A stretch of 61,446 nucleotides of DNA from a virus: the IMG/VR virus record IMGVR_UViG_3300043399_000529, positions 1-61,446 of that record; one strand, written 5' to 3'. Position 1 is the first letter of the stretch; each line of letters starts with the position of its first letter. Position numbers and translations under genes: made by a program. This document shows, piece after piece, positions 1 to 60,495 of the stretch. The notes beneath the pieces are model-generated. The model was not told the DNA's origin. It saw only the letters and a program-made list of their open reading frames with translations, and did no database searches.

Positions 1-72
1 TGCGTCACGCTTTGCGTCATAGGGCAGGCACTTTGCAATATCTTTCTTCTTCTTAGCCATGTAAACGTGCAT
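1..72 (-). CDS. Partial CDS, lysine-rich N-terminus, runs off the window
   Basis: Reading leftwards from ATG at 72 gives MHVYMAKKKKDIAKC and continues open to the window edge. An AGGAG sits just upstream of this ATG, and a sigma70-like promoter lies at 97-124. An internal ATG at 60 (MAKKKK) is an alternative start. Only 24 codons are visible, so no function can be given. Confidence 0.55.
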   Translation of the reverse strand, partial: MHVYMAKKKKDIAKCLPYDAKRDA

Positions 73-96
73 ATGTATCTCCTAAGCAATGTGTGT

Positions 97-124
97 AATA
101 TAACAGAATGTACAAAAAAGTCAA
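97..124 (-). promoter_or_regulatory. Sigma70-like promoter for the gene starting at 72
   Basis: On the minus strand TTGACT (124-119) is followed after 16 bp by TATATT (102-97). The same TTGACN-N16-TATANT layout recurs before 5388, 4998, 13192 and 60421, which makes it credible as the host-type (early) promoter of this phage. Confidence 0.6.
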
Positions 125-173
125 CTCCAGCGCCCAAATTAGGACTGCTAAGTGTTTGATTTTGAACAACAAT

Positions 174-383
174 CTAGTGTCCAAATCTTAGTAAAAACAG
201 TGTTCTTTGATTTGGGTAAACGAAAATCATGTGATCGCTAACAACAGCACCAACACCCTTTCCTTCATTTTGGAACCAATTATGGACTTCATATTTGTTC
301 TCTTGCCACCAAGTCATATTGTTACAAATGGCAAGTTCAGGTGTGTCCAAATCATCACAAAAGGCCCAAAGAGGTTTTTTCAT
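174..383 (-). CDS. Small LRW-family protein, amber (TAG) stop
   Basis: This 69-aa protein ends in TLFLLRFGH, a variant of the xxFxLRWS tail shared by the next five genes upstream. It has WW and several other aromatic residues but no motif I can name. It starts 1 nt after the preceding gene and ends in TAG. After that TAG the frame stays open to the window edge. It is the last member of the tandem array. Function unknown. Confidence 0.7.
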   Translation of the reverse strand: MKKPLWAFCDDLDTPELAICNNMTWWQENKYEVHNWFQNEGKGVGAVVSDHMIFVYPNQRTLFLLRFGH

Positions 384-384
384 G

Positions 385-705
385 TTAGCACCATCTTAGC
401 TTAAACATAGTAGCGTCTGATTCTTTTTCAAAATACCAAAAGTGTCCAAAGCAAGTATAGGAATGTTTCCCAGCTAAATTGTTTTTAAGCCATTCTTCAT
501 CAACATCGGCCCAAGCATCAATTACAACTTGAGTCCAACCTTTCTCAAGTAAGGTTGGACCAACGATAGCATTCATAACTTCGTCGTCGATTGCCTTTTG
601 CAGCTCATTGCCCATTATATGTTCGATTTCTTCGGATAGGTCGATAGTGTATTTTGCTGACAGTTTGCGAGTACTTGAACCAACTTTTTCTTTTTTAATG
701 TGCAT
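385..705 (-). CDS. Small LRW-family protein
   Basis: About 106 aa from ATG at 705 (MHIKKEKVGSS); an upstream in-frame ATG at 729 would add eight residues. The 705 start overlaps the end of the upstream gene by 11 nt, like other junctions here. The C-terminus reads SDATMFKLRWC, so acidic residues, then D-A, then a hydrophobic LRW strand, as in its neighbours. Function unknown. The repeated tail and similar size suggest gene duplication. Confidence 0.75.
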   Translation of the reverse strand: MHIKKEKVGSSTRKLSAKYTIDLSEEIEHIMGNELQKAIDDEVMNAIVGPTLLEKGWTQVVIDAWADVDEEWLKNNLAGKHSYTCFGHFWYFEKESDATMFKLRWC

Positions 706-946
706 CGTTTCCGCCCCATCGTAACGCAATTAGCATACGGTCGTTAACATCACCGCCTCTGACCTCGTAATGATAAAGAATATTTTCAAAATCACGTTCA
801 ACATTGACATCTAGTATATAGCGGTCTGTTAGCGTGTCGAGCAACCAAAATTTAAACTCATCCGCTTCCTTAGTTCCCACAGCAGTGGCATAACATAGCC
901 AACGCTTTTCACCAATGTCACGGAACTTTATTTTCATTATGACCAC
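695..946 (-). CDS. Small LRW-family protein (GTG or ATG start)
   Basis: 83 aa ending in LIALRWGGNDAH. The first possible start is GTG at 946, inside the overlap with the upstream gene; ATG at 937 (MKIKFRD) is the alternative and touches the upstream TAA as TAATG. It keeps the LRW signature but carries six further residues after it. No enzymatic motif is visible. Array neighbours and overlaps suggest co-translation. Confidence 0.72.
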   Translation of the reverse strand: MVIMKIKFRDIGEKRWLCYATAVGTKEADEFKFWLLDTLTDRYILDVNVERDFENILYHYEVRGGDVNDRMLIALRWGGNDAH

Positions 947-1341
947 CGAAGCAGATACATTACTTTATCTTTTTCTTCTGCAAAGAAGATATGATTGTGT
1001 GAACAAATATAACGATAACGCATATGCTCCATCATCCAATCAAAATGCCCTTGCGGCATAATCATTTGTGAAACATCAACATACGGATAACCAGCTGACA
1101 AAAAGTCCTCTGCATTATAAATCTTCTTACGGTTGTTTACACGTAGGAAGTGATTAAAGATTTCTCTCGGCGGTTTAATTCCAGAATGACGATGATAAAT
1201 GTTAGAGAACATTGTAGATTTGCCGTGCCCTCTTCCGCCAATTAGTTGCACACTAAGAATACTCTTAGCAACTTGGCTCGGTAGCACTTTTCTTAATTGT
1301 TCTAACATCTCTTTTAACGGAATATCTTTCTTCATGACCAT
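937..1341 (-). CDS. LRW-family protein, 134 aa, P-loop-like stretch
   Basis: Starts ATG GTC ATG at 1341, overlapping the upstream gene by 10 nt, and ends KVMYLLRWS. It contains QLIGGRGHGKSTMFSN (about residues 32-47), which resembles a Walker A loop (GxxxxGKS/T), but no Walker B is evident and the protein is too short for a normal P-loop NTPase. The rest is unrecognised. It is the longest array member, so it may be an LRW domain joined to another piece. Confidence 0.72.
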   Translation of the reverse strand: MVMKKDIPLKEMLEQLRKVLPSQVAKSILSVQLIGGRGHGKSTMFSNIYHRHSGIKPPREIFNHFLRVNNRKKIYNAEDFLSAGYPYVDVSQMIMPQGHFDWMMEHMRYRYICSHNHIFFAEEKDKVMYLLRWS

Positions 1342-1643
1342 CTCAAGCTTAGTATTGTAGCACCTTCATCGTAGTTTGTAACAATAAAGATTTCATCACC
1401 GCCACCAATAGAATTTGAACACCAACGTTTATTCCAGCAATCATACAGCACACGATCAATAATATAGAAAGCAAAATTGTGAATACAAGATTCCTCGAGT
1501 TCGCTGGTATCTCGCCATACTGTATGTCCATCACCAACGAGTAAGATGTGCTTGTATTGACTGTACGCCCAATCAATTGGTATGTTTAGACGTCGATGTA
1601 TTTCTAATGGTTTCGGTAAACTAAACGGCCAGATCATGACCAT
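1332..1643 (-). CDS. Small LRW-family protein
   Basis: 103 aa, starting ATG GTC ATG and ending GATILSLRWS-TGA. Both ends lie in 10-nt overlaps reading ATGGTCATGA on the minus strand: the same ten bases end one protein (RWS-stop) and start the next (MVM). A 75-aa frame inside it (1349-1576) is a shadow. Function unknown. Confidence 0.75.
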   Translation of the reverse strand: MVMIWPFSLPKPLEIHRRLNIPIDWAYSQYKHILLVGDGHTVWRDTSELEESCIHNFAFYIIDRVLYDCWNKRWCSNSIGGGDEIFIVTNYDEGATILSLRWS

Positions 1644-1891
1644 CTTAACATGAACAGCATAGCGTCTGCTTCTGACGGAAATTCAACAGCCATAATTGGT
1701 CGCATAGTTTCGTTCTCAGGAGGTTCCCCATATATTAGTCTAACGTTAAATTTCTTTTCATATTGAGCATCAACCAAATCAACGTCAGCATATTCAAGTT
1801 CTGGAATAGAACTGTAACTGTTGCTAAACCAAATTGGTTCTTCAACGCTAAACACAGGTCTGCGTAATTTTAAAACGTGGGTCACGACCAC
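1634..1891 (-). CDS. Small LRW-family protein, GTG start
   Basis: 85 aa. The start is GTG GTC GTG at 1891, inside a 10-nt overlap with the upstream gene; no ATG is available there. It ends EADAMLFMLRWS-TGA. The E-A-D-A-M-x-F tail is nearly the same as in the genes at 385 and 1882. No other motif is seen. Confidence 0.75.
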   Translation of the reverse strand: MVVTHVLKLRRPVFSVEEPIWFSNSYSSIPELEYADVDLVDAQYEKKFNVRLIYGEPPENETMRPIMAVEFPSEADAMLFMLRWS

Positions 1892-2169
1892 CTCAACATA
1901 AACATGACTGCTTTGCTTTCGTCATAAAATCTTAAAAAGCGTAATCCATGTCTTTGAACTACAAACGCGCCTTGCTCGTATAACCAATCTTCAAATGCTT
2001 GTGCTTTAGCAGATGAACGATGCACAAATCTGTAATTAGTTTCGTAAATTTGACTTTTCTTCCAAACATCACAGTGCCAACTTCCCCATACACGATCAAG
2101 CAAAGTATGGTCACTGTCAAAGACATCGTCTTCAATAATATATCTAGTTGTTACTTTGCTCATGACCAC
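1882..2169 (-). CDS. Small LRW-family protein
   Basis: 95 aa, starting GTG GTC ATG (2169; ATG at 2163 is the alternative) and ending ESKAVMFMLRWS-TGA. It overlaps both neighbours. The N-terminal part is acidic and aromatic and not recognised. A typical array member. Confidence 0.75.
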   Translation of the reverse strand: MVMSKVTTRYIIEDDVFDSDHTLLDRVWGSWHCDVWKKSQIYETNYRFVHRSSAKAQAFEDWLYEQGAFVVQRHGLRFLRFYDESKAVMFMLRWS

Positions 2170-2578
2170 GCCATAGTGCTAAAAAGGCCACTGCATCTTC
2201 CCACATTAATCGAACTTCGTAACCTTCAATCATATAATCTCGACGAGTTGATTTTCTCCTTTTTGGGGGATTTAAAAAGTTTCTCCCAGCAGCTTCCCCG
2301 CTACCAAACCCTCCCATAACGAGTTGGTGACCATGCTCAATCACTACAATATTTTCTTTAATATTGTCGCGTACAAATACAGCAAGTTCTTTTAATGCCT
2401 CGTCGTAACTAGTGGTTACCCCTTCTTGCAGTTCTAACCAATACGATACTTCAAACATGCCAATGCGAGGGTTAGTGGTTTCATAAAGATCCCATACTCC
2501 TCGCTTATGCGGCTCTTGGCTTTTTACTATAACACCTGATCCAGCAGGACGGGGTGGATCATTTTTATAAGTTGTCAT
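2144..2578 (-). CDS. LRW-array protein with an out-of-register tail, TAG stop
   Basis: 144 aa, MTTYKNDPPRPAG at the start. The tail reads EDAVAFLALWRGHEQSNN. The DNA still holds TGGTCATGA at the junction but one frame off, so the protein misses its RWS-stop and runs 26 nt into the next gene to a TAG. A small insertion or deletion at the junction would explain this. The N-terminal part (EVSYWLELQEG) is not recognised. Confidence 0.7.
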   Translation of the reverse strand: MTTYKNDPPRPAGSGVIVKSQEPHKRGVWDLYETTNPRIGMFEVSYWLELQEGVTTSYDEALKELAVFVRDNIKENIVVIEHGHQLVMGGFGSGEAAGRNFLNPPKRRKSTRRDYMIEGYEVRLMWEDAVAFLALWRGHEQSNN

Positions 2579-2813
2579 TCTTCATACTGTATACAGGAAA
2601 AGTAGCAGCCTTCTTCTTAGGGGTGATGATACCAACAGCATACCCATTATCGAGTTCAACCCAGTAGTGAACATTTTTTTCGGGACCAGGCCATCCTTTA
2701 TTGGAACCGTTGCGCTGCTTAATTTCTACTTCGCTAAACTCCTTAGCAAGGATTTCAACGTTCTTGTACTTTGGCATATCCCACCAAATATCAAAATCTT
2801 CAATAAGCTTCAT
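2565..2813 (-). CDS. Small conserved phage protein
   Basis: 82 aa, MKLIEDFDIWWDMPKY. The middle has NVHYWVELDNGYAVGI followed by a FPV stretch, a pattern I recall from small T4-like phage proteins of unknown function. It overlaps the next gene start by 14 nt and the previous stop by 4 nt (ATGA), so it is in the same transcript as the LRW array. Confidence 0.72.
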   Translation of the reverse strand: MKLIEDFDIWWDMPKYKNVEILAKEFSEVEIKQRNGSNKGWPGPEKNVHYWVELDNGYAVGIITPKKKAATFPVYSMKNDNL

Positions 2814-3004
2814 TTAAATCTCCTAACTCTAAGTAAAATTAACGGAAGGTCTTCATCTGGTATATCAACATCTTGCCATCTACCGTCTGCATCAAGGTTG
2901 ATAACAATATGTTGTGATTTAAACCATTCTTCAATATACGGTTTTGTTGCTTTTGGATCGTGCAAAAACTCCATACCTAAGGAGTAATAAATCTTCTCCC
3001 ACAT
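2810..3004 (-). CDS. Small protein, distant LRW-type tail
   Basis: 64 aa, starting MWEKIYYSLGMEF and ending LILLRVRRFK, a hydrophobic-L-R strand placed like the LRW tail of the array. It overlaps the gene at 2565 by ATGA. Function unknown. Confidence 0.65.
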   Translation of the reverse strand: MWEKIYYSLGMEFLHDPKATKPYIEEWFKSQHIVINLDADGRWQDVDIPDEDLPLILLRVRRFK

Positions 3005-3024
3005 CGGATCATTTAATTGAAGCT

Positions 3025-3396
3025 TTATGGCGTTACTCCTATTCTAAAATTAAGACGGATAAGAATCTCACAATCTTCGTTGAAGTAAAGTTGAGTGTGA
3101 TGCCAATAACTTTTGGAATCGTTTTGATAAACCCAAGGCACGTTATCTAAACTTAGTCCGTTCTTAACGTAGTGTTTAGCCATACCATAGTTCATGCTTG
3201 GGCCAAAATTTTGACTCATCCAATTTACAAACTTAACGGATAGAGCACTACCGCGAATAGTAAAACAGTACTTGTAATATTTGAAGAGTGGATTACGGCC
3301 ATCAAGCTTTTCCATGTAAGCACTTTCTGACATAGAACGACCAAAGTCGACTTCATTGCCTTCTGGATCACTGATCTTTTTGTATCTACCTACCAT
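3025..3396 (-). CDS. Conserved hypothetical protein, 123 aa
   Basis: MVGRYKKISDPEGNEVDFG at the start; ends CEILIRLNFRIGVTP, again a hydrophobic strand near the C-terminus that may be a degenerate LRW tail. It is the first gene after the GC-rich gap behind the AAA+ ATPase, and probably the head of the array operon, though no clear promoter is seen in the gap. Confidence 0.7.
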   Translation of the reverse strand: MVGRYKKISDPEGNEVDFGRSMSESAYMEKLDGRNPLFKYYKYCFTIRGSALSVKFVNWMSQNFGPSMNYGMAKHYVKNGLSLDNVPWVYQNDSKSYWHHTQLYFNEDCEILIRLNFRIGVTP

Positions 3397-3515
3397 GTGT
3401 AACCCTTGTGATGAATAGCCCCAACCAAACGCCTCACCACTGTCGTCCCAAACCTCCCCTGGACAACTTACCAGGAGCGGGGGATTGGGTACCCCGCTCC
3501 AACTATGGTGTGCTA
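3397..3515 (-). other. GC-rich gap with hairpins (possible leader RNA)
   Basis: 119 bp without a gene, much richer in G+C than its surroundings. It holds a perfect 9-bp inverted repeat (3474-3482 with 3492-3500, 9-nt loop) and a second 5-bp hairpin (3458-3462 with 3471-3475) that shares two bases with the first, so the two partly compete. Neither is followed by a T-run, so a simple terminator is unlikely. It could be a regulatory leader for the gene at 3396 or an mRNA 3'-end stabiliser for the ATPase. Confidence 0.4.
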
Positions 3516-4634
3516 TTACTCAGCAGCGGCGAGAATGTACTTGCCGTACTTCTTGTTGAACTCGTCCCAGTTCTTAAGCTTCTGAGCAGCAATAGGCAGA
3601 CGGTAGGTCATTACCGCAGTACGCATACCCATAATAACAAGCTCAGTACCGAGATTGTCCATAATGTAACGAAGCATGTTGTCAACGTTACCGTGCCACT
3701 TCTCGTCAGCCTTCTTGGTGTTGTTCTCGAAGCGTTCCTTAAGTTCGTAGCACAGGTTAATCATCAGTGTATACTGAGCGGAAATTTCCTGTACCTTAAG
3801 GTCCTTAACCTTACCTTCGACAACATCAGTTGCAGACGGAAGCTGACCTGACCACTTGCGGTGACCAATGAACTTGTGAGCAATGCCTTCGCCAACAGTA
3901 CCAGCGATCACATCGGTCACTTCCTTTTCGCTCATCTGTTCCTGCAGAATGTCGCTAACGAACGTCCAGCTACGCGGAGTAGCAAACGAACGGGAAGAGC
4001 TAGTTGGACTAAAGTCAAACAGGTCACCCTTGTGCTGGGAGAGATAGCCAATTACGTCCGAGTGAACGTTATGGGTAACAGCCCACAGGTGCCAGCTATC
4101 AAAATCAACACGCATCTCAAAGTGTACAAAGCGGTTAGCAAGCGGAGCCGGCATACGGTAAGTAACACCCTTGTCAGTCTCGCGGTTACCAGCAGCAATA
4201 ATCACCACGTTGTCGGGCAGCTTATACTGACCAATGCGACGGTTAAGAATAAGCTGGTATGCAGCAGCCTGTACAGCAGGCGGAGCAGAGTTCATTTCGT
4301 CAAGGAAGAGAATGACATGCTTATACTGAGAAGCAAGGTCAGCAGTTGGAAGATCAACTGGAGCAGCCCAGTCCATTGTGTTAGTGTTGGGGTTATAGAA
4401 ACCAATACCACGCAGGTCGGTCGGATCGAGCAGCGCCATACGCAGGTCGATTACAAGTGCACCAATCTCGTCACCAATATCAGCAACAAGCTCGGACTTG
4501 CCAATGCCCGGAGGGCCCCAAAGGAAGATGGGACGCTTGCGCTTTACAGCAGCAATCTTAATGAGGTTACGTGCCTCAGCAGACGTAACAGTACGAACTT
4601 CACTTACAACAGAATTCTTATCAGTCTTAGCCAT
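3516..4634 (-). CDS. MoxR-type AAA+ ATPase
   Basis: 372 aa. Walker A GPPGIGKSE (about residues 40-48), Walker B ILFLDEMN, a sensor-1-like AAGNRE and an arginine-finger-like ANRF are all present in MoxR/RavA order. These ATPases usually remodel protein complexes together with a VWA-domain partner. I see no VWA gene next to it here. It sits alone behind promoter 4674-4701 and is followed by the GC-rich gap. Its codons are richer in G/C than most of the window. The ATPase call is firm; the target is unknown. Confidence 0.85.
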   Translation of the reverse strand: MAKTDKNSVVSEVRTVTSAEARNLIKIAAVKRKRPIFLWGPPGIGKSELVADIGDEIGALVIDLRMALLDPTDLRGIGFYNPNTNTMDWAAPVDLPTADLASQYKHVILFLDEMNSAPPAVQAAAYQLILNRRIGQYKLPDNVVIIAAGNRETDKGVTYRMPAPLANRFVHFEMRVDFDSWHLWAVTHNVHSDVIGYLSQHKGDLFDFSPTSSSRSFATPRSWTFVSDILQEQMSEKEVTDVIAGTVGEGIAHKFIGHRKWSGQLPSATDVVEGKVKDLKVQEISAQYTLMINLCYELKERFENNTKKADEKWHGNVDNMLRYIMDNLGTELVIMGMRTAVMTYRLPIAAQKLKNWDEFNKKYGKYILAAAE

Positions 4635-4673
4635 TTATAAAACTCCCAATCAGTTAGCTAATTAACAATTACA

Positions 4674-4701
4674 CTTTTAGCACATTGACACATAATGTCA
4701 A
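4674..4701 (-). promoter_or_regulatory. Early-type promoter with palindromic -35 (AAA+ ATPase)
   Basis: On the minus strand TTGACA (4701-4696) and TAAAAG (4679-4674) are 16 bp apart. The -35 is one arm of the palindrome TTGACA-TTATG-TGTCAA (4685-4701). The sliding-clamp promoter has an analogous palindrome, so a repressor or activator site is possible. Confidence 0.55.
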
Positions 4702-4716
4702 CGTTTATTTTGGACT

Positions 4717-4998
4717 TTATGCTGCGGAAAGCATTGCAGCAGGAACAGTCCAATTCGTCATGCCCTCGCGGACAATAACACGCTTGCGGTTAATTTTGGT
4801 AACCTTACCAACGTGAACACGACCGGTGCGGCTATTGGTAAACTTTACTTCGGCACCAACAGTAAGCGACCAAACATTGCGCTTGGTAAGCTTTTCGCGG
4901 GCGTACTTAACAGCCTGGTACATGGTCATAAGTTCGTCATTAGTCCAATTCTGGTACATAATGGCGGAATTTACGTCTGAAATAGTGAGGTTGCTCAT
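4717..4998 (-). CDS. Small SH3/KOW-like protein
   Basis: 93 aa. The second half (about residues 46-90) reads VGAEVKFTNSRTGRVHVGKV followed by RKRVIVREG, which has the glycine spacing of a KOW/SH3-like barrel and suggests nucleic-acid or protein binding. From memory similar small proteins occur in many T4-like marine phages. Single gene behind its own promoter (5024-5051). Role unknown. Confidence 0.72.
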   Translation of the reverse strand: MSNLTISDVNSAIMYQNWTNDELMTMYQAVKYAREKLTKRNVWSLTVGAEVKFTNSRTGRVHVGKVTKINRKRVIVREGMTNWTVPAAMLSAA

Positions 4999-5023
4999 TT
5001 GTTTCTCCGTGTTCAGTATGTTG

Positions 5024-5051
5024 TTTATACAGTCTGTGTTTATAATGTCAA
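5024..5051 (-). promoter_or_regulatory. Sigma70-like promoter for the gene at 4998
   Basis: TTGACA (5051-5046), 16-bp spacer, TATAAA (5029-5024) on the minus strand, with TTAT directly after the -35 as in the promoters of the AAA+ ATPase and the clamp. Confidence 0.65.
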
Positions 5052-5058
5052 CTGCTTT

Positions 5059-5388
5059 TTAGCGGACGTCCGAATTAAGTTTAGGCTTAGCCTTCTTAAT
5101 AATTTCACGTTCACGTTCGTGGGCAGCAGCCTTGCCACGCACAACTTCGATCACTTCAAGCTTAATGCTTTCACGATCAATGCGGCGAAGGGCTTCGTAA
5201 ATCTTCCAGCCCCAACGGTCCGCATCGTTTCGCCTAGACCAATGCTTAACAAAGCGGCGCTTAACGCTAAGCTCGGCCTTCTTGCCGCTGTCAACAACGG
5301 TAACGCCAATGTAAAATTCCTTACCCACTACAATTTTGTAAATTGCGTGGTTGCGGTCAGTCCTGCGTTTGCGCTTCTTCGTTTCCAT
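5059..5388 (-). CDS. GIY-YIG-like nuclease-domain protein
   Basis: 109 aa, very basic N-terminus. AIYKI...FYIGVT matches the paired strands of the GIY-YIG fold (here IYK and YIG), followed by a basic helix (VKRRFVKHW) and HEREREII then P-LN near the end, where the family has its metal-binding glutamate and N. The domain stands alone without a DNA-recognition module. It has its own strong promoter. It could be a homing-type or host-DNA nuclease. Confidence 0.65.
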   Translation of the reverse strand: METKKRKRRTDRNHAIYKIVVGKEFYIGVTVVDSGKKAELSVKRRFVKHWSRRNDADRWGWKIYEALRRIDRESIKLEVIEVVRGKAAAHEREREIIKKAKPKLNSDVR

Positions 5389-5394
5389 GTTCTT

Positions 5395-5422
5395 ATAATA
5401 CTCCCATAGTCCAAAACGTCAA
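5395..5422 (-). promoter_or_regulatory. Sigma70-like promoter for the GIY-YIG gene
   Basis: TTGACG (5422-5417), 16-bp spacer, TATTAT (5400-5395) on the minus strand. The start codon at 5388 lies only 6 nt past the -10, so the mRNA would have almost no leader. Confidence 0.6.
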
Positions 5423-5464
5423 CCAAAAAGACACCAAAAAAGCAAAAAAGATTCCTTAATGAAT

Positions 5465-5524
5465 TCAAGCACTTAGAGGGCACATTTCTTAAGGAAAAAT
5501 ACCCGTTTAAAATCAAGCACTTAG
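5465..5524 (+). repeat. Direct repeat TCAAGCACTTAG, two copies
   Basis: TCAAGCACTTAG occurs at 5465-5476 and 5513-5524, 48 bp apart, just before the plus-strand gene at 5543. Near copies (CCAAGCACTTAG, TCAAACACTTAG) lie upstream of the genes starting at 8529 and 72, always in the direction of the gene. It may be a binding site for a phage regulator. Confidence 0.45.
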
Positions 5525-5542
5525 CGGCAACTTAAATACAGC

Positions 5543-6559
5543 ATGTTCAATCCTGTGTTTAACCCCAAGAAATTACAAGGTTTTTTCTGCTCAAGTCCTT
5601 GGAATAGCATCACCATTGAGGACGATGGTTTCGTATACAGTTGCCAATGTGCCCGCTGGACTAACCTAAAATTGGGCAATTTACTGCAAGAAAATTTACT
5701 TGATATATACGCTAGATCTCCGCATTTGCAGTCATTACGTGATACTGTAAAAGATGGAACGTATAGCTGGTGTGTAGAATGGGATTGCAATGAGATATCT
5801 AGATTGCCCACATATAAAGAAAATCCATTTAAAGAATTTAATGTGGATGAAAATCCAAGTTTACCAACTAACATAACACTAGCAATTGATTTGAATTGCA
5901 ATCTAAAATGCCCAAGCTGTCGTTCATTTAAAACATTTAGTAATATACCAAATCCAGTAACGAAGAAAATACTTGATTCACTAGCAGAGGCTTATAAGGA
6001 TTTTAATCAATCTACAATGGTCATGCTTGATGGCGGCGGCGATGTTTTCGTTAGCAAAGCATATGAGGAGTTTCTTTTTACAGGCAAGCTTCCTAAGTGT
6101 TGGAAGCTAATGATATTAACCAACGGCAATTTAATTCCCAAACGAAAAGAAGAAATACAAAAGATCGCACACCAAATAGATATGGTAACAATTAGTCTTG
6201 ATGCCGGTACTGAGGAAACTTATGCCATCACTAGGGGTGGCAGTTTTGAAAACGTTATTAAGGGAATTGAAATATTAAAAGAAATGGGTATATCCCAACA
6301 TCTCCAATTCGTATTGCAAAAAGCAAACTACAAAGAGCTGTTGAAATATAAAGCAATAGCAGACAAATATGATATTAGTTACGGTGTTCAAAAAATTGAT
6401 AATAGAGAACACATGACAAAAGAGTACTGGGCTAACGCTAATTTAGACGATAACCCAGATGTAGATTATGCTTTGCTAAAAGAATACCTTACAGTGCTAA
6501 ACAATGATCCAAAATCTAATTTGGATGGCGGCACACGTTGGTTACTAGCTAAGCTTTAA
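5543..6559 (+). CDS. Radical-SAM protein with N-terminal SPASM-like cysteines
   Basis: 338 aa. The radical-SAM cluster motif CxxxCxxC is C119-C123-C126, followed by a GGGD stretch and TISLDAGTEETY as in SPASM-type radical-SAM enzymes. The extra cysteines (C16, C34, C36, C77, C82, around SPW and the D-G turn) lie before the core instead of after it, so the auxiliary-cluster domain is permuted. Such enzymes often modify peptides or sugars; the substrate is unknown. It is one of few plus-strand genes and converges with the minus gene ending at 6556 (4-nt overlap). The plus-strand repeats at 5465-5524 lie just upstream. Confidence 0.75.
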   Translation: MFNPVFNPKKLQGFFCSSPWNSITIEDDGFVYSCQCARWTNLKLGNLLQENLLDIYARSPHLQSLRDTVKDGTYSWCVEWDCNEISRLPTYKENPFKEFNVDENPSLPTNITLAIDLNCNLKCPSCRSFKTFSNIPNPVTKKILDSLAEAYKDFNQSTMVMLDGGGDVFVSKAYEEFLFTGKLPKCWKLMILTNGNLIPKRKEEIQKIAHQIDMVTISLDAGTEETYAITRGGSFENVIKGIEILKEMGISQHLQFVLQKANYKELLKYKAIADKYDISYGVQKIDNREHMTKEYWANANLDDNPDVDYALLKEYLTVLNNDPKSNLDGGTRWLLAKL

Positions 6560-7105: not shown

Positions 7106-7279
7106 TCAATCTAGGCCATTTGCTTTTTCCTTTTCAATAGCGGCTTCTTTTTGTAATAATTCAGTCATTTCTTTTAGAACATCGATGCCATGAATAGCCA
7201 TCATGTCCTGTATTAGATCTTCTTCAATTTCAGCATTGATGCCATCGACATTAAGCTTAATCATTTTTGTTTTATTCAT
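7106..7279 (-). CDS. Small acidic protein
   Basis: 57 aa from ATG at 7279 (MNKTKMIKLNVDG), overlapping the upstream stop by 8 nt; ATG at 7291 is an alternative. Ends EKANGLD-TGA inside the start region of the next gene. Mostly helical and charged, no motif recognised. Confidence 0.62.
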   Translation of the reverse strand: MNKTKMIKLNVDGINAEIEEDLIQDMMAIHGIDVLKEMTELLQKEAAIEKEKANGLD

Positions 7280-7640
7280 CTTCATCCTCATATTCTTTAG
7301 TCGTTATCTCGTCAAGTCTTAACAATGCCTGTTCTACTAGTTTGGGAATTTTCTTCCTACAAACTGCACACATCCATCTGAGATACATAACATCTTCTAT
7401 ATCAAAAAGTTTTTCACCTTGATATTTTCCAAACCAAAGAGTATAATCTGGTTTTTTTCCAGATGGTGGAATGCGACATGTTTCAATTTCTGCTTTGATA
7501 ATACTGTAAAACTCTTGTTGTGTGCATTTATATTGATATTCTTTTTCGTATTCTTCTTTAAGAAATTCGGGATAAGAAAATCCAAATTCTACTTTACCAG
7601 CATTGTACCGTTGTAACCTTCTGCTTGCAGTTTTGTACAT
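7272..7640 (-). CDS. DUF3820-like small protein
   Basis: 122 aa. LWFGKYQGEKLFDI followed by YLRWM (about residues 69-90) resembles the (F)GKYKG..L.diP..YL.W pattern of DUF3820, a domain also found fused to exonucleases and thought to bind nucleic acid. A CAVC pair follows. The acidic C-terminus overlaps the next gene. Function inferred only from that resemblance. Confidence 0.6.
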   Translation of the reverse strand: MYKTASRRLQRYNAGKVEFGFSYPEFLKEEYEKEYQYKCTQQEFYSIIKAEIETCRIPPSGKKPDYTLWFGKYQGEKLFDIEDVMYLRWMCAVCRKKIPKLVEQALLRLDEITTKEYEDEDE

Positions 7641-10091: not shown

Positions 10092-10168
10092 TGGCGCCCG
10101 GTGTGGGGCTCGAACCCACGCTGGCGAGACTTTAGAGATCTCCGCTCTAACCACTGAGCTAACCAGGC
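10092..10168 (-). tRNA. tRNA with anticodon CUA (amber-decoding)
   Basis: A 77-nt cloverleaf with encoded CCA. Acceptor GCCTGGT/ACCGGGC (one G-T pair), D-arm GCTC/GAGC, anticodon stem GAGAT/GTCTC around loop CTCTAAA, T-arm GTGGG/CCCAC with loop TTCGAGC. U33 and A37 fit only if positions 34-36 (10135-10133) are CUA, which reads UAG. The variable loop of 6 nt is slightly long. It is a suppressor-type tRNA unless the first anticodon base is edited. The amino acid it carries cannot be told from the sequence. Confidence 0.85.
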
Positions 10169-14402: not shown

Positions 14403-14606
14403 TTAGTTCCTTTCGTAGGCGTACTTTAACGCAACTATCGTAGCAACACCTGAGTCTTTAAAATTGAAAACTATTTCAGTGTTATTTGAAAACGGTTTCA
14501 TATACCAAGTGTAATCACCTGGCCAATCTATATCGTATTCAGTTTGCAACCAGTGTGTTATCTCAATAGCTTTTTTGTATCCGCCCTTTATAATCATGTT
14601 CCCCAC
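14403..14606 (-). CDS. Small protein with LRW-like tail, 67 aa
   Basis: MGNMIIKGGYKKAIEI; ends SGVATIVALKYAYERN, where VATIVALKY resembles the xAtxFxLRW tail of the 0.2-2.6 kb array. Function unknown. Overlaps the endonuclease gene by 13 nt. Confidence 0.62.
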   Translation of the reverse strand: MGNMIIKGGYKKAIEITHWLQTEYDIDWPGDYTWYMKPFSNNTEIVFNFKDSGVATIVALKYAYERN

Positions 14607-15392: not shown

Positions 15393-16247
15393 CTATGTAC
15401 CCCAGGCATTTTTGAACAAAGGTACCTGAATACGTGGGCTAAAGCGTAGTCCATTATCCCTACAAAAGTCTGCTACTTGGCGTTCATTGAGTTCATATAC
15501 ATGATTAACACCGCCAACAGGCATAAGATACACAGGAATGTTAATACCGGCATCTTCATATTCCTTTTTTGCTTTCATTGCATCTTCAACATCCTGCTGT
15601 GTACTAACAACGAACTTGAAGTAGCTACGATGATCCTTAATGTTAACGTAACTTTTTACGACATCTGGAAGAATTGCCTCTTCCCACTTTTCACCGCTGC
15701 ATGGTAATTTAGCACTAATTGAAAACGTAACTTCGAGCCCAGGCCACAAAGCTTTACTGTTTAAGAAACCCCACAGATCTCCACTTAGTGGTTGTGTGCC
15801 ATTTGTTTCAAATGTTAGATGTGTTAGTCCAATATCCATACATGCTGCAATAAGCTCTGGATAACTGCGTTGCCAACCAAGCAGTGGTTCACCACCAGTA
15901 ATGATTAAGTGTTTGTCTCGTCCGAACGTTCCCCCCGGGAGGAGGTTCTTAATTTGTGCGACAATGTCGCTAACTTCCATAAGAGGACTGAGATGCTTAA
16001 ATTTAGGATCCCAACTGGCATAGCTATCACAACCGGTTGATACAAGAGGCAGATCACGGTAATCGCTGTAAGCATTAGGATCAATATTACTGCGCTCATT
16101 CGATACTTCTCCTCGAACCATACCGAATCCACTGCAAGTAAAATTACAGCCAAAAGTCCTAAGAAAAATGGAAGGTACTCCCACATATTGTCCCTCTCCT
16201 TGTAAACTATAAAATAATTCTGCTACTTTAATTTTGCTCATCATCAA
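15393..16247 (-). CDS. queE: QueE: 7-carboxy-7-deazaguanine synthase (radical SAM), TAG stop
   Basis: 284 aa (ATG at 16247, 16244 or 16241). FYSLQGEGQYVGVPSIFLR is the QueE signature, then C34-x3-C38 and, after a 34-residue insertion, C73-DSYASW, which corresponds to the usual third cluster cysteine followed by D-T/S. ITGGEPLL is the SAM-binding GGEP. QueE turns 6-carboxy-tetrahydropterin into CDG, the core of 7-deazaguanines. queD is about 350 bp upstream and folE 3 kb upstream. The gene ends in TAG, with another TAG six codons on. Confidence 0.88.
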   Translation of the reverse strand: MMMSKIKVAELFYSLQGEGQYVGVPSIFLRTFGCNFTCSGFGMVRGEVSNERSNIDPNAYSDYRDLPLVSTGCDSYASWDPKFKHLSPLMEVSDIVAQIKNLLPGGTFGRDKHLIITGGEPLLGWQRSYPELIAACMDIGLTHLTFETNGTQPLSGDLWGFLNSKALWPGLEVTFSISAKLPCSGEKWEEAILPDVVKSYVNIKDHRSYFKFVVSTQQDVEDAMKAKKEYEDAGINIPVYLMPVGGVNHVYELNERQVADFCRDNGLRFSPRIQVPLFKNAWGT

Positions 16248-16428
16248 CCTTTGTTGTTAAGAGCCACTTACCATCTTCTTCGGTCCAAATAATTGTATCA
16301 CCAACGTCCCAACCCATTTGATTAAGAGCATCAGGAGGAAGCTCAATGTATAATTCATCAGTTCCCTCCCTGCTTTTAACTTCAATGATCCAGCGATTGG
16401 CCCCTAAATCTTTTGGATAGTTATTCAT
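16228..16428 (-). CDS. AbrB/MazE-like small DNA-binding protein
   Basis: 66 aa from ATG at 16428 (8-nt overlap with the upstream gene); ATG at 16440 is possible. The core ELYIELPPDALNQMGWDVGD, then IIWTEEDGKW, matches swapped-hairpin AbrB/SpoVT domains (LPxxxLxxLGW.xGD). Such proteins are antitoxins or transcription factors. It lies between QueE and QueD and may regulate this set. Confidence 0.68.
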   Translation of the reverse strand: MNNYPKDLGANRWIIEVKSREGTDELYIELPPDALNQMGWDVGDTIIWTEEDGKWLLTTKVDDEQN

Positions 16429-16618
16429 TTGTTGCAACATCTGTTTTTAAACATAGTCCAATTCCATTACCATGCACAATTATACCACCAAGACGTTCGC
16501 ACTCTGTTTTATACCAATTTACTTTTGTTGCAAATTGAAAAGATAAAGCAGTTGTAATAACAATCAAAGCAATGATGCCAACAGTGTATATGTTAATTAA
16601 AACAAATCTTCGTTCCAC
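16421..16618 (-). CDS. Small single-pass membrane protein
   Basis: 65 aa. One transmembrane segment (about residues 9-30, VGIIALIVITTALSFQF) followed by a small domain with two cysteines (CERLGG, GLCLK) that could form a disulphide outside the cytoplasm. Overlaps queD by 22 nt. Function unknown. Confidence 0.65.
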   Translation of the reverse strand: MERRFVLINIYTVGIIALIVITTALSFQFATKVNWYKTECERLGGIIVHGNGIGLCLKTDVATNE

Positions 16619-17097
16619 TCACGATGTCCTTCTCTGTATGCCATGTTGGCTACTGTTTCACGAACCTCAACACGATAACACCACAATCTTGATGCTTCGC
16701 TTGGTCCCCACATATCAGGAATATACACGCCATTTACATATTTGTAAAGCATGTCGGCTAAGCTTTCGCAACCTAGCTTTGGTAAAATAGTTAGTTTGGC
16801 TAATTTCTTTTCTTGTAGCATCTTAAATGTCTCAAGTTCTGGATCATCCTCTGCTACAAGTAATGTATGATCAAACTGATCTTCGAGCATTTTCTTAAGC
16901 TCTTTAAGCCCACCATAATCAGCAGCCCAATTGCGAACGTCTAAATCATTAGTGCCAAAGTAAAACTTTATTGAGAAGCTATAACCATGAATTAGGTTAC
17001 AGTGTGAATCTGCACGCCATTGCCTATATGCACAAGGGAATGCATTAATATATTCTTTAGTTGAAGTATATTTGTAAGATACGGGTGTATTTGCCAT
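16597..17097 (-). CDS. queD: QueD: 6-carboxy-tetrahydropterin synthase, unusual zinc site
   Basis: 166 aa, a T-fold enzyme. SHCNLIHGYSF gives the catalytic Cys (C33) and one zinc His (H37); DYGGLKELKK and FDHTLL (D76, H77) are the conserved D-F/Y and catalytic D-H; VEVRET near the end holds the substrate-binding Glu. By alignment to E. coli QueD from memory, the other two zinc histidines are Y24 (CAYRQ) and Y39 (HGY). It makes CPH4 from dihydroneopterin triphosphate. No strong promoter in the 97-bp gap upstream. Confidence 0.85.
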   Translation of the reverse strand: MANTPVSYKYTSTKEYINAFPCAYRQWRADSHCNLIHGYSFSIKFYFGTNDLDVRNWAADYGGLKELKKMLEDQFDHTLLVAEDDPELETFKMLQEKKLAKLTILPKLGCESLADMLYKYVNGVYIPDMWGPSEASRLWCYRVEVRETVANMAYREGHREWNEDLF

Positions 17098-17194
17098 AAT
17101 CAGTCTTTCCTATCTATGACACGCAGAGTTCTTTTAGAGGGGTGAGTGTCAAGGCCTCTTATAGCTGTATATTAAGCTAACTTAACATTAGCTA

Positions 17195-17569
17195 TCAATA
17201 TTTATTTTTTCTGCTATAATATGCTTTAGTTCCGTTGGAATGAACTTCCCTACATAGATCAGTTTTTGTAAATTCAAGCGCAAAACGTGTTTCATCTGCT
17301 TCTTCCATAAAAACAAAAAAGCACGTTTTGCCATCTGGGGCAACTAAGTCTCCCCAATTGTTAATTGCAGCATTCTTATCTGGTGCCAATAGTCCGTTCC
17401 AAACAAATACTTGCCCAGAACAGTTTTCATCTACCCACTTTCGTATACGCATACGATTTACCCAAGGTATTGAGCACTCGTAAAATCTAAAATCATCAAC
17501 ATTAATTAACCATGTTAATTCATCATAGTCACTAATGTAGCGTAGGTTCTTATTAAGTCTTAAATCCAT
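17195..17569 (-). CDS. LRW-type small protein, 124 aa
   Basis: MDLRLNKNLRYISDYDEL; contains EEADETRFALEF, close to the E-A-D-A-x-x-F-x-L-R-W tail of the first array, here followed by about 25 more residues. It is therefore likely a distant relative placed 15 kb away. Function unknown. An unusual 97-bp AT-rich gap follows to queD. Confidence 0.66.
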   Translation of the reverse strand: MDLRLNKNLRYISDYDELTWLINVDDFRFYECSIPWVNRMRIRKWVDENCSGQVFVWNGLLAPDKNAAINNWGDLVAPDGKTCFFVFMEEADETRFALEFTKTDLCREVHSNGTKAYYSRKNKY

Positions 17570-17766
17570 TCCTCAGCGATGCCCAAAATTTCTGCTAGAC
17601 CTAAACCAATTGCAAGCATCAATACTGCTGGTGATCCACCTTCAATATGTCCAAGAACAATAAGTGTTATAATACAAGACAAACAAGATGCAATTCGTAT
17701 ACCGCTTTTGATAAAACTAATCTTTTGATGCCAGTGCTTATACTTGTGTTCAAAATCATTCGACAA
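17560..17766 (-). CDS. Small two-pass membrane protein
   Basis: 68 aa. A charged N-terminus (HKYKHWHQK) and two hydrophobic segments (about 25-42 and 46-63), the second glycine-rich. Resembles small inner-membrane proteins of phages. Overlaps both neighbours by 10-11 nt. Confidence 0.65.
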   Translation of the reverse strand: MSNDFEHKYKHWHQKISFIKSGIRIASCLSCIITLIVLGHIEGGSPAVLMLAIGLGLAEILGIAEEWI

Positions 17767-18076
17767 TTGGGGGTTCTCCTTGTGTTAAGTTGTACATATT
17801 TAAGTAGTCCTCCCACGCCTTCTTTAATGCAGGATACTTCTCATGCAGTGCCCTTTGCTCATAACTCGTATACACTGTTGGTTGAGCTACTTCGGGAATT
17901 ATTCCAAAACTGTTGTCATAAGATGTACCAGTGTCTACTGCCCATTCGTATGTGTCATCGCTTGTAATGTTAATGATATATTTGCTTAAGTCTATATCAC
18001 TAACATTATATTCCTCTGTTACACTAATATCACCACTTAAGGTAATACTAACGTTCATGTTATCTTCTGGATCCAT
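17756..18076 (-). CDS. Small protein with YPALKxAW motif
   Basis: 106 aa. The first half is beta-like and acidic; the C-terminus has EKYPALKKAWEDYLNMYNL. The same P-A-L/V-K-x-A/S-x-E/Y helix ends the proteins at 18451 and 25524, so the three form a second paralogous family. Function unknown; in T4-like phages such helices often end very small accessory proteins. Confidence 0.68.
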   Translation of the reverse strand: MDPEDNMNVSITLSGDISVTEEYNVSDIDLSKYIINITSDDTYEWAVDTGTSYDNSFGIIPEVAQPTVYTSYEQRALHEKYPALKKAWEDYLNMYNLTQGEPPIVE

Positions 18077-18077
18077 A

Positions 18078-18461
18078 TTAACCTCGCAACATTAGCTGCA
18101 CTAAGATATCATTTATCCTAACACCCATATCTTCGCTGTCAGATACCATAAACAATTCGTGTGCTGGACGATATGAGCTAGAATGTACTGGGCCATCTTC
18201 ATTCTTCCAAGCTTCTACAATGTGTCCACCATTTGCACGATGCAAACGAATATTCCAACCTTCAAAGCTTTTGTTAAACCCATTAGGTCCTTGTGTAGAT
18301 GGTATTGGTTCTGAAACTACTATATTTTCATCTTCTTTTAGATAATCGCGTAGCCACTGCTTAAATGAACGACGCTTTTGTTTTACATCTTCCTGTGACC
18401 ATGAAGGAGCACTTGAACCAATTCCAGCACCTTTACGATATTTGTTTACTTTATATCCCAT
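18078..18461 (-). CDS. Hypothetical protein, 127 aa
   Basis: MGYKVNKYRKGAGIGSSAP; a basic segment (KQKRRSFKQWLRDYLKED), then RLHRANGGHIVEAW. From memory, similar to other small marine-phage proteins encoded beside the YPALK family. Ends LVQLMLRG. Function unknown. Confidence 0.68.
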   Translation of the reverse strand: MGYKVNKYRKGAGIGSSAPSWSQEDVKQKRRSFKQWLRDYLKEDENIVVSEPIPSTQGPNGFNKSFEGWNIRLHRANGGHIVEAWKNEDGPVHSSSYRPAHELFMVSDSEDMGVRINDILVQLMLRG

Positions 18462-18780
18462 CGTTGTTCTCCCAATCGTGTTTTACCATAGCTTCTACAA
18501 TTTTATAATTCTCATAAGCTTCTTTAAGTGCAGGATACTTATCAATCATGTCAAATGCAGGTTGAATAAGACATAGTCTTTCCATTATTGTATCAAACAT
18601 TTCACCTACATGAATATCTGGTTTACCTTCACGGCGAAGAATTATATCGTTACTATAAGCGTTAGTATTAGCATAAATGCTTGATGTTGTGTAATACGAT
18701 GGAGAAGTTGCCCAATAATTTGAACCTGTTGCTCCAATTGTGTAAGAACTACTGTTAAGTGTTACGTTTCCTGTTGCCAT
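18451..18780 (-). CDS. Small protein with YPALKEAYENY motif
   Basis: 109 aa. Serine/threonine/tyrosine/asparagine-rich first half (TTSSIYANTNAYSN), then IHVGEMFDTIMERLCLIQP and KYPALKEAYENYKIVEAMV. The two-part architecture matches the protein at 25524. Overlaps the gene at 18461 by 11 nt. Confidence 0.68.
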   Translation of the reverse strand: MATGNVTLNSSSYTIGATGSNYWATSPSYYTTSSIYANTNAYSNDIILRREGKPDIHVGEMFDTIMERLCLIQPAFDMIDKYPALKEAYENYKIVEAMVKHDWENNDGI

Positions 18781-19214
18781 TATGATTCCTTATTGTTCTT
18801 AGCTATAAGCATTTCTCGAATGCTATTTTGAACATGTTCAGGAACTTGCACTTCACCGTTAAATTTAAATTTTTCTGCATGTGTATCATAGTTTTTACGG
18901 TAAATGCGATCTACTTCAGTTCGAATGTATTCGTTTTTTGCTAACTTTTCTACACACTCATTTAATTTAAATTGTTCGTGTTCAACAATAACATCGGGCA
19001 TTCCTAGTTCTTTTATTTTTTTAACTCGTTGAAGTCGCCACTCAATTCTTTCTTCAAGTTCTTTTTTTGTAAGTTTTGGTTCTTTTGTAAATCTTGCCAT
19101 ATGAGAGTTCCATTGTTTTGTTCTCTCTTCATCGAGTCGTTGTTGTTCTGCTTCGTATGAAGCTTGATCTATATGAAACCAATAATAGTCTGCATCCATA
19201 TTCGGTATTAACAT
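18780..19214 (-). CDS. Coiled-coil protein, 144 aa
   Basis: Long charged helices (YEAEQQRLDEERTKQWNSH, KELEERIEWRLQRVKKIKEL) make a coiled coil likely. Overlaps folE by one base and touches the next gene, so part of the same transcript. No family recognised. Confidence 0.65.
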   Translation of the reverse strand: MLIPNMDADYYWFHIDQASYEAEQQRLDEERTKQWNSHMARFTKEPKLTKKELEERIEWRLQRVKKIKELGMPDVIVEHEQFKLNECVEKLAKNEYIRTEVDRIYRKNYDTHAEKFKFNGEVQVPEHVQNSIREMLIAKNNKES

Positions 19215-19888
19215 TAACCATGTCCTTTCATGCTTAAGCAGATATCGTAGAATTCCTTTTTAAGCGGAGCATGTGTGTCGAATGCACCAAGCATAATTGC
19301 GGTTGTCATATCGCTTTCGTGCTCGCGTACACCACGCATTGTCATGCAGTGATGCTCTGCTTTAACAAGCACTGCGATGTTTTCAGTCTTTGCATACTTC
19401 TTTAGTGCTTCTGCAATTTGTGTTGTCATTTCCTCTTGAATCTGAGGACGTTCGCAAATGTGATGCACAATACGATTGAACTTACTAAGGCCAATTACTT
19501 CATCTTCTGGTACAATACCAACCCAACACTTACCGACAATGTTTTGGAAGTGATGAGCGCAAGTGCTGCGTACACTAATTGGTCCGGTAGTATACAAACT
19601 CTTATATCCCATGTTTGGGAATGCTGTTACTTTTGGTACTGGACGATAACGACCACTAAATGTTTCAAGAATAAACATCTTAGCAACGCGGCGTGCAGTG
19701 TCTTGTGTATTGTGATCGTGCTCGGTATCAATTACTAGAGACTGTAGCACACCTTGGAACTCGGCAGCAACTTCATCTACAAGTGCATCAAGTTCACCTT
19801 CTTGAATATATTGAGCAATGTTATCATTGCTATGAAATCTATCACCTGCTGCTAAAATGCGCTGGCGAATTTGCTCTGAAACTTTCAT
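19214..19888 (-). CDS. folE: FolE: GTP cyclohydrolase I
   Basis: 224 aa. Type I GTP cyclohydrolase: TCAHHFQNIVGKCWVG and EHHCMTMRGV give the zinc Cys and His set, and VIGLSKFNRIV and RPQIQEEMT are conserved family stretches. It converts GTP to dihydroneopterin triphosphate, the first step of the 7-deazaguanine route used by queD and queE. TAGGAG lies 8 nt before the ATG. A short GTAG/CTAC stem-loop with a T-loop precedes it in the gap. Confidence 0.92.
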   Translation of the reverse strand: MKVSEQIRQRILAAGDRFHSNDNIAQYIQEGELDALVDEVAAEFQGVLQSLVIDTEHDHNTQDTARRVAKMFILETFSGRYRPVPKVTAFPNMGYKSLYTTGPISVRSTCAHHFQNIVGKCWVGIVPEDEVIGLSKFNRIVHHICERPQIQEEMTTQIAEALKKYAKTENIAVLVKAEHHCMTMRGVREHESDMTTAIMLGAFDTHAPLKKEFYDICLSMKGHG

Positions 19889-20803: not shown

Positions 20804-21868
20804 TTAGATTGCCATTGACTTTTTAATAGTCGAGTATAATTCTTTGCCGTTAAAGAACTTATCACCAGTTTGATTAGCCATTTCTTTAGACTTCTCATAA
20901 AGATCATTGCGTTCCATTGTGTTACGAATGAATTGCATTAGATAACCCTTATTGTCCTGATATGCTTTCCAACTTGTTACCCAACGATTTGGATATTTTT
21001 CTTCCCACATCTCAGTATAGCTTAGTCGATCTGGTACCATTGGATATGTTCCAACTAATGCAGCTTCATATGCGCTAATACCAAGTGTCTCTTGCAAGTT
21101 AGCACTAAACATAACTTTGCTTTCAGCCATATGCTTATGGTATTCATCTTTAGACAAGTTATGTTCTTGTGCAATGAACCATTCATATTCTGGCATACTT
21201 GCAGCAAGGTCTTTAAAGATTTCAACTTGCTTCTCTGGAGCAATGCGGTGAGGGAAGATGATCTTATTCTTCTTTTGCACAGTATCATATGGCTGCATTA
21301 CCTTTGGTAGATACTCCATAGGCCAACCAACAATATGACACTTAGGATCTACAGCATCCTCGAATGGAAAATCGAACAGTGTTTGTAAAAATATGTCTAA
21401 GTGGAATTGTGTCGCAAAAAAGTTATCATCATAGCAATCATACATACTACGCTCTGCGTTACGCACCCATGGTTTGTTACCAATAAGTCGTCCTAGAAAA
21501 TCATGTGGATCATAGCTACCGGCATGCCATAGACCACCAATGCGAATTTTAACACCAAGCAGCTCAGCCATATACTTGAGCTGTATTACAGTTGGGTTCC
21601 ATGCATCGGTGTATAAGAAATAGTCGCCGTCCTTAATGTTGCCAAATGCAAACTCACGGCTAATCTCAATCATTTGTTGTGCTTTATAGTTGTTAGTGCC
21701 AGCAAAGTTTAAAAACGCACCTGGTGTTGTTGCCATTGGAACATCACCACCTGAAATCTTTACAACATCCAACCCTGCTTCACGCATTTGAATTGGTAAG
21801 TGTTCTTTCCATTGTTTTGTGTAACGTGTGTCAACTGCTTCAATGTCAACAATGTAAACTCTATTCAT
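20804..21868 (-). CDS. GT-B type glycosyltransferase
   Basis: 354 aa. The C-terminal half has HRIAPEKQVEIFKDL (the usual GR..eKg...li site) and SANLQETLGISAYEAALVG, the E-x7-E of GT4-like enzymes. The N-terminal half (YIVDIEAVDTRYTKQW, DGDYFLYTDAWNP) is, from memory, typical of phage relatives. The acceptor is unknown. Forms a pair with the epimerase. Confidence 0.78.
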   Translation of the reverse strand: MNRVYIVDIEAVDTRYTKQWKEHLPIQMREAGLDVVKISGGDVPMATTPGAFLNFAGTNNYKAQQMIEISREFAFGNIKDGDYFLYTDAWNPTVIQLKYMAELLGVKIRIGGLWHAGSYDPHDFLGRLIGNKPWVRNAERSMYDCYDDNFFATQFHLDIFLQTLFDFPFEDAVDPKCHIVGWPMEYLPKVMQPYDTVQKKNKIIFPHRIAPEKQVEIFKDLAASMPEYEWFIAQEHNLSKDEYHKHMAESKVMFSANLQETLGISAYEAALVGTYPMVPDRLSYTEMWEEKYPNRWVTSWKAYQDNKGYLMQFIRNTMERNDLYEKSKEMANQTGDKFFNGKELYSTIKKSMAI

Positions 21869-60421: not shown

Positions 60422-60451
60422 CTGTTTTCTCCATTTAGTTGCTTACAGTAT

Positions 60452-60479: not shown

Positions 60480-60495
60480 GTGTTATATTGCACTA

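Follow-up and report, generated by a model that had tools for sequence, protein, structure and literature searches.

Why should one small phage gene after another end in the same three residues, with the bases that encode those residues also opening the next gene at several joints? The question is raised by a run of minus-strand genes at the start of IMG/VR virus record IMGVR_UViG_3300043399_000529, of which positions 1 to 61,446 were analysed (this whole 61,446-nucleotide stretch is called the window here). The genes end in leucine-arginine-tryptophan (LRW), and we find that LRW-tail genes form a large, previously undescribed family of small proteins that is widespread in large tailed phages. 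A subset of the family carries what are, by homology, fragments of the T4-type major capsid protein gp23. We put at about even the chance that the arrays are translationally coupled sets of accessory proteins whose heads can be exchanged and which include capsid mimics.

A first, sequence-only reading of the locus had described up to seven consecutive small genes with L-R-W ends, and such a run exists: seven consecutive small minus-strand open reading frames (ORFs) occupy 174-2169, six ending in LRW and one in LRF (Table 1). The run does not reach 2578 as had been proposed, since the ORF at 2144-2578 has no in-frame motif. The window has 414 ORFs with 35 residues or more, and 5 of them close with [LIVM]RW plus at most one residue; when the final 30 residues were shuffled ORF by ORF, the mean was 0.125 and the maximum 1. 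Membership of the family was defined by a C-terminal F..E.DA..F.LRW helix inside a beta-alpha-beta-beta-alpha domain, and the array belongs to it: a profile of the tail returns expectation values (E) of 1e-5 or lower for the genes beginning at 385, 937, 1634 and 1882, and of 0.22-0.68 for those at 174 (0.22), 695 and 1332, of which 174 and 1332 are backed by full-length blastp (for 174-383, E 2e-5 to an ORF of locus L048 and 5e-4 to a tail ORF of L050). More relatives had been proposed at four other positions of the window. That at 14403 is plausible, 21861-22199 is marginal (tail profile E 0.08), 17195-17569 finds no support from the tail profile or blastp, and the ORF at 2810 is an array neighbour without an LRW tail.

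The family was sampled in the window plus 146 IMG/VR loci (1.36 Mb, 10,876 ORFs), all selected by the tail. A scan of IMG/VR for the codons of DAxMFKLRW had yielded 30 loci and a scan for tail plus joint at least 120 stretches, with a few chance matches expected by a rough estimate. The profile of the last 22 residues (E of 0.01 or lower) finds 785 tail ORFs in 146 of the 147 sequences, at most 23 per locus, and 177 of the 785 themselves matched the selecting scan patterns. A regular expression with strict spacing found 48 ORFs against none in shuffled sequences; its pattern is too narrow, and the profile counts are preferred. Exactly one residue follows the tryptophan in 611 of the 785 ORFs. 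The columns conserved before LRW are F, (D/N), E, D, A, F and L; conservation extends 13-15 residues upstream, and farther out lie W[CL], G and another W, as well as N/E. In 28 whole records, 23 of them picked for having the tail, copy numbers reach 55 (in a 416-kb contig) and 42 (in a 608-kb contig). The profile search across phages that the first reading had suggested also extends the tail to isolates: Sinorhizobium phage Phosso has 38 copies and Pseudomonas phage PA5oct three, and the genomes of T4, Vibrio 2.275.O and Erwinia SNUABM_47 have none. A scan of genome contigs gave three matches, of which L183, a 6.4-kb contig from a Bacteroidetes metagenome-assembled genome, is an array with 15 tail-like ORFs; the other two (L182 and L184) were rejected as chance matches with no array present.

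Little of this family has a name. In the stretches inspected, the tail genes of Phosso and PA5oct are annotated as hypothetical proteins, and no recurrent Pfam, PHROG or PADLOC family was found in 145 short members, nor any recurrent NCBIfam family in 143 long ones. PADLOC gave only two single weak matches among the 145, with a library that covers defence systems and barely tests anti-defence. Across both sets the sole recurrent named family is gp23. Relatives of P0002 with an LRW tail were not found by tblastn in named phages (only gp23 of a Campylobacter phage, E 0.2), nothing was returned there for the tail peptide or a member from locus L100, no relative was confirmed by an IMG/VR protein scan with P0002, and megablast of window positions 1-6000 against phages gave no match. 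A literature search for the tail, its tandem arrays or gp23-fragment proteins found no report. Subfamilies recur across contigs, with NxIGGGD in 20 loci and WQYNG in 12. One LRW-tail protein (L095, 10074-10565, minus strand) has a head of HREDGPA-type repeats, another sign that heads may be exchangeable. Most small genes in jumbo phage genomes are unannotated, and the LRW domain, with up to about 50 copies per genome, makes a part of them recognisable by profile.

What the members share appears to be a fold. A typical member was modelled with AlphaFold2 from an alignment (A1) of 145 sequences, namely 140 of 167 ORFs selected from the loci plus five window proteins; a second alignment (A2) holds all 143 selected long ORFs. 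The model of the typical member has a mean predicted local distance difference test score (pLDDT) of 79.7, with strands at 13-16 and 18-21, a helix at 30-40, strands at 44-47 and 50-53 and a helix at 56-66. That of P0002 (19 sequences, pLDDT 77.8) has a long helix at 23-54 and then a strand-helix-strand-strand-helix succession that ends in helix 95-105. Both models put LRW at the end of their final helix, in place of the hydrophobic strand that the first reading saw in the tail. The models predict a shared C-terminal beta-alpha-beta-beta-alpha domain, ferredoxin-like minus one strand, and so bear out the proposal that the tail is part of a conserved fold element in many paralogues; unrelated folds between members, which would speak against that kinship, are not seen in these two. 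The A1 model has no Foldseek match in the PDB at E of 0.001 or lower, only generic ferredoxin-like matches, the best PDB match being an RRM (Z 6.0, root mean square deviation 1.7 over 52 residues), an unremarkable level. The A1 profile against PDB sequences gave two matches, both with E above 1. Among viral models Foldseek points to uncharacterised phage proteins, including an Atu_ph07 (Agrobacterium phage) protein matched with E 0.02 and probability 1.00.

The joints are where protein and DNA meet. Across the family, 249 of 364 tail-to-tail pairs overlap by ten bases, and the common joint spells L-R-W-(S/A)-stop as YTG-AGG-TGG-NCA-TGA, with NCA usually (T/G)CA. This DNA places GAGG five nucleotides ahead of the ATG that lies within a four-base ATGA overlap, and the overlap grows to ten bases because the R-W codons form an upstream in-frame ATG or GTG that adds six bases to the ATGA. 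In the window three joints have the ten-base overlap by which the genes had been said to be joined; the others are built differently, with TAATG at 937, an 11-base overlap at 695-705 and none at 383-385. The claim that the same bases recur at several joints stands for two, where ATGGTCATGA is exact and to which it is confined (0.18 occurrences expected in the window); the third reads GTGGTCGTGA. At the joint of P0008 TGG-TCA-TGA is retained in another frame.

Codon choice tells how far tail and overlap are linked. The comparison of arginine codons omitted, from the 785 tail ORFs, 177 that match the scans, 167 whose final 14 residues lack LRW and 12 that lie at contig ends. The leucine is YTG in 296 of 363 tails, against 895 of 2734 elsewhere. 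Its arginine neighbour is AGG at 180 of 250 joints where a tail ORF comes next and at 80 of 115 where the next ORF is of another kind; where no ORF follows the tail, it is AGG in only 11 of 38 cases (p 5e-7 against joints to a tail ORF). Among the other arginine codons of the same genes, 294 of 3606 are AGG. GAGG occurs at 206 of 304 overlapping joints and 18 of 59 non-overlapping ones (p 1.4e-7). Long ORFs without LRW in the same loci have Shine-Dalgarno 4-mers at 192 of 520 starts (55 in shuffles), with a peak at -11/-10; the joint GAGG starts at -9, the short end of that range.

These figures invite the idea that LRW is conserved only as DNA, as a ribosome-binding site of which the protein end is a by-product. 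The excess of AGG before an overlapping ORF (260 of 365 LRW arginine codons, against the background above) and of GAGG at overlaps would fit, as would the members of L183 that have exchanged W for Y and still keep GAGG, as GAGGTATTCATGA. LRW is nevertheless found without an overlap, with CGC or other codons, in Phosso, where the inspected genes lack such joints, and in the 59 non-overlapping cases; conservation reaches upstream to F, D, A and F and on to W, N/E and G; and LRW is helical in the models. A purely nucleotide signal was rejected as sole cause on the upstream conservation and the LRW tails without overlaps, and we hold the DNA-only explanation to be hardly credible. Since Phosso has LRW without the overlap, the tail does not owe its existence to the overlap. 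The protein motif is primary, and codon choice suggests that the array joint uses its codons as a ribosome-binding site. The supposed locking of tail and overlap thus survives as a linkage, made by a Shine-Dalgarno sequence in the L-R codons plus ATGA. In Phosso a tRNA-Arg with anticodon CCT, which reads the joint-favoured AGG, directly precedes an LRW-tail gene (L178, 1822-1896, plus strand).

The heads hold a feature on which the first reading was silent. Among the 143 long members, 14 match PF07068 (gp23; best E 9.3e-12) and 12 match the major head protein family PHROG 138 (best 1.2e-13). A gp23 profile built from five gp23s of array-bearing contigs matches 18 of the 10,876 ORFs (E below 0.05), only at profile positions 49-100 (segment A) or 154-218 (segment B), and none of 54,380 shuffled ORFs, five copies of all. 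Thirteen of the 18 have the tail by profile, four have a diverged tail (KW or TW) and one has none. These members match gp23 segments beyond shuffled sequence and by that measure are gp23-derived fragments, a statement of descent and not of membership: a full gp23 would score above the PF07068 cut-off across most of 376 positions, and chimera L144, with 34.2 bits, does so over 77 positions only. Segment B we take to be the E-loop return strand plus the spine helix of the HK97 fold. Profiles of the segments (E of 0.01 or lower) find 14 A and 45 B proteins, 13 and 19 of which had built the profiles. Loci with A hold B in 10 of 14 cases, against 33 of 132 other loci (p 8e-4), and in L093 and L115 the two are adjacent with a ten-base overlap. 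A 49-residue ORF in L013 (10537-10686, minus strand) consists of the segment-B helix, the tail and little more, perhaps a minimal member or a remnant.

Could such arrays be recombination debris, in which a mobile tail has picked up random gene fragments that serve no selected function? The extreme sequence diversity, the weak window members at 2144-2578 and 695-937 and the member fused to HREDGPA repeats would suit that account, which we regard as very improbable. The ratio of nonsynonymous to synonymous substitution rates (dN/dS) is far below 1 in six related chimera pairs (0.11, 0.15, 0.43, 0.45, 0.29 and 0.20; a seventh is too close) and disfavours it, subfamilies such as NxIGGGD and WQYNG recur across contigs, and the captures are non-random, gp23 being the only recurrent family and contributing two segments only. 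The same purifying selection counts in favour of an action of the segments on assembly, in which they would join or poison capsomers, modulating the phage's own capsid or inhibiting co-infecting T4-type phages. Only two fixed segments are used, and both lie in the N-terminal half; arrays often hold A together with B; and intact gp23 and chimeras occur together in contigs G014 and G023 (the search of whole records for gp23 covered 29 of the 147). The remainder of the capsid fold is missing from the chimeras, however, and defence decoys fit equally well, so that we rate an assembly role as possible but somewhat unlikely.

By its matches the window carries a segment B/segment A pair, in P0002 and P0004. 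P0002 (segment B) matches PF07068 with E 7e-5 and an ORF of locus L092 (4214-4534) with 42% identity and E 1.9e-25; the L092 ORF itself matches gp23 with E 1e-7. P0004 (segment A) has blastp matches to L095 10535-10954 (E 4e-12) and L092 5277-5717 (E 9e-10), and it aligns with PMIRKVxPxxIAxxIxGVQPM, P, A and Q being retained (alignment A4). Its GGRGHGKST aligns with gp23 GVQPMTGPTG; a P-loop NTPase suggested by that motif was rejected (NB-ARC 14.2 bits, cut-off 23.5; top PHROG 0.045). The best relative of P0007 is L092 4531-4806 (blastp E 2.5e-10), and with P0002, P0004 and P0007 all having relatives in L092, at least three array genes are common to the window phage and that of L092. The arrays of L039 and L055, which hold the relatives of the ORF at 2810, each include a segment-B chimera. 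The segment-B-like ORF at 7106-7291 matches PF07068 with E 2.6e-5 and 9.6e-4.

Several observations weigh against arrays of coupled, partly gp23-derived proteins. The window gp23 matches (22.8 bits for P0002 and 19.1 bits for 7106-7291, over 37-89 positions) lie under the Pfam cut-off of 24.4; P0004 has no GVQPM, and its assignment rests on its relatives; P0002 has no structural match to a capsid protein (Foldseek, VIA). Many segment-B members retain just the short helix motif, and the co-occurrence of A and B has a p of only 0.03 and 0.02 in loci with at least four and at least six tails. Within the window GAGG is present at one joint only, with AGA, CGG and CGA elsewhere.

A possible function for segment A comes from phage exclusion. 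In nine gp23s the most conserved 29-residue window is T4 100-128, inside segment A. The Gol peptide presumably lies at about 93-121, coordinates for which confirmation in print was not found. Gol is described as a 29-residue stretch, located in the first quarter of gp23 and forming its best-conserved part, that binds EF-Tu domains II and III and enables Lit to cleave EF-Tu (PMC3014915). Segment-A proteins might be free Gol-like peptides on EF-Tu that adjust host translation or protect EF-Tu against proteases of the Lit type. The coincidence of segment A with the 29 best-conserved residues of gp23, in its first quarter as published for Gol, speaks for it; several chimeras have lost parts of the segment (P0004 and L076), the Gol coordinates are presumed, and segment B and the other heads would stay unexplained. 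We think it unlikely.

Our preferred account, of coupled accessory proteins some of which mimic the capsid, would work as follows. The shared LRW domain would be a common scaffold for dimerisation or docking, a guess from its fold, and translational coupling would let the proteins be produced together. Heads would be swapped or diversified, and the cassette of tail plus start would keep every recombinant expressed and in frame; from the joint design one sees how gene arrays could preserve this while their heads change. Members with gp23 segments would be partial capsid mimics that bind whatever binds these segments and build no capsid; candidate targets are EF-Tu, capsid subunits and defences that sense the capsid, of the Lit type or another. 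Such mimics would most likely serve to weaken defences that the phage's own capsid protein sets off, with free pieces saturating the sensors. Sequence alone does not choose between a defence decoy and disturbance of rivals' capsid assembly. A bolder version, a self-propagating diversification cassette that would bring any head joined to it into frame and hand expression on to the next gene, and whose products include paired gp23 mimics (Gol-like and spine-helix) as defence decoys, seems to us doubtful. Should the gp23-bearing members bind EF-Tu or immune sensors, no earlier phage-encoded decoy of the capsid trigger would be known to us; a literature search for such decoys found no report.

Table 1. 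Genes, joints and related features of the LRW array and its surroundings in the window
Feature	Positions	Strand	Details
P0001, diverged LRW-family gene, 69 residues	174-383	minus	C-terminus FLLRFGH
P0002, fusion of gp23 segment B and LRW domain	385-705	minus	C-terminus MFKLRWC
P0003, weak LRW-family gene	695-937	minus	C-terminus IALRWGGNDAH; tail profile E 0.28; top blastp E 0.10
P0004, fusion of diverged gp23 segment A and LRW domain	937-1341	minus	C-terminus YLLRWS; tail profile E 2e-6
Joint ATGGTCATGA	1332-1341	minus	R-W-S-stop plus M-V-M; codons TTG AGA TGG TCA TGA
P0005, LRW-family gene, NxIGGGD subfamily	1332-1643	minus	C-terminus LSLRWS; blastp E 1.8e-9 to L108 tail ORF
Joint ATGGTCATGA	1634-1643	minus	codons TTA AGA TGG TCA TGA
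P0006, LRW-family gene, GTG start	1634-1891	minus	C-terminus FMLRWS; tail profile E 1.4e-6; blastp E 7e-6
Joint GTGGTCGTGA, third ten-base overlap	1882-1891	minus	codons TTG AGG TGG TCG TGA; GAGG Shine-Dalgarno form
P0007, LRW-family gene, GTG start	1882-2169	minus	C-terminus FMLRWS; tail profile E 9e-6
P0008, upstream neighbour without in-frame LRW	2144-2578	minus	C-terminus FLALWRGHEQSNN
P0010, array neighbour without LRW tail	2810-3004	minus	blastp E 5e-7 to ORFs of L039 and L055
ORF of 61 residues, gp23 segment-B-like stretch EEDLIQDMMAIHGIDVLKEM, no LRW tail	7106-7291	minus	PF07068
Probable diverged LRW-family gene outside the array	14403-14606	minus	blastp E 0.003 to L084 tail ORF

Elsewhere in the window, ARAGORN places a tRNA with anticodon CTA (named tRNA-Pyl) at 10092-10168 (minus), possibly a phage suppressor tRNA. 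Radical-SAM, PTPS/QueD-like and GTP cyclohydrolase I genes lie close together at 15393-19888 (minus), which suggests 7-deazaguanine DNA modification. An L,D-transpeptidase (YkuD, E 6e-18), an unusual phage cargo that has a hydrophobic stretch near its N-terminus, is encoded at 22148-22696 (minus), and a ClpA/ClpB-type AAA+ protein adjoins a DnaJ with J and C-terminal domains at 58151-61362 (minus). A radical SAM protein with a SPASM domain (5543-6559, plus) is among the few plus-strand genes thereabouts.

Set beside known systems, the LRW domain has a helix and strand arrangement like that of small ferredoxin-like domains (RRM, ACT, DCoH), but it is one strand short, has no sequence relation to them and has a Z below the level of kinship. 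In the Gol/Lit/EF-Tu exclusion of T4 by the E. coli e14 element, segment A appears to sit in the region described for Gol; here, in contrast, it would be the head of a free small protein, in a phage for which neither a Lit protease nor a host is known. Capsid proteins trigger the CapRel and Thoeris defences (PMC9712102, PMC11312562), which makes the major capsid protein a frequent trigger of immunity that a phage might have reason to mask; mimicry by the LRW chimeras is what we infer. As for T4-type gp23 (PF07068, 360-520 residues), a subset of LRW proteins contains two recognisable stretches of it, one at about T4 89-130 and one in the later E-loop/spine-helix part, but the chimeras hold only 25-60 of these residues, fused to an unrelated C-terminal domain and encoded by separate small genes. 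Translational coupling through an ATGA overlap and an internal Shine-Dalgarno sequence is a standard bacterial and phage joint that LRW arrays likewise use; they differ from it in that, at most joints, one fixed protein motif encodes the whole joint.

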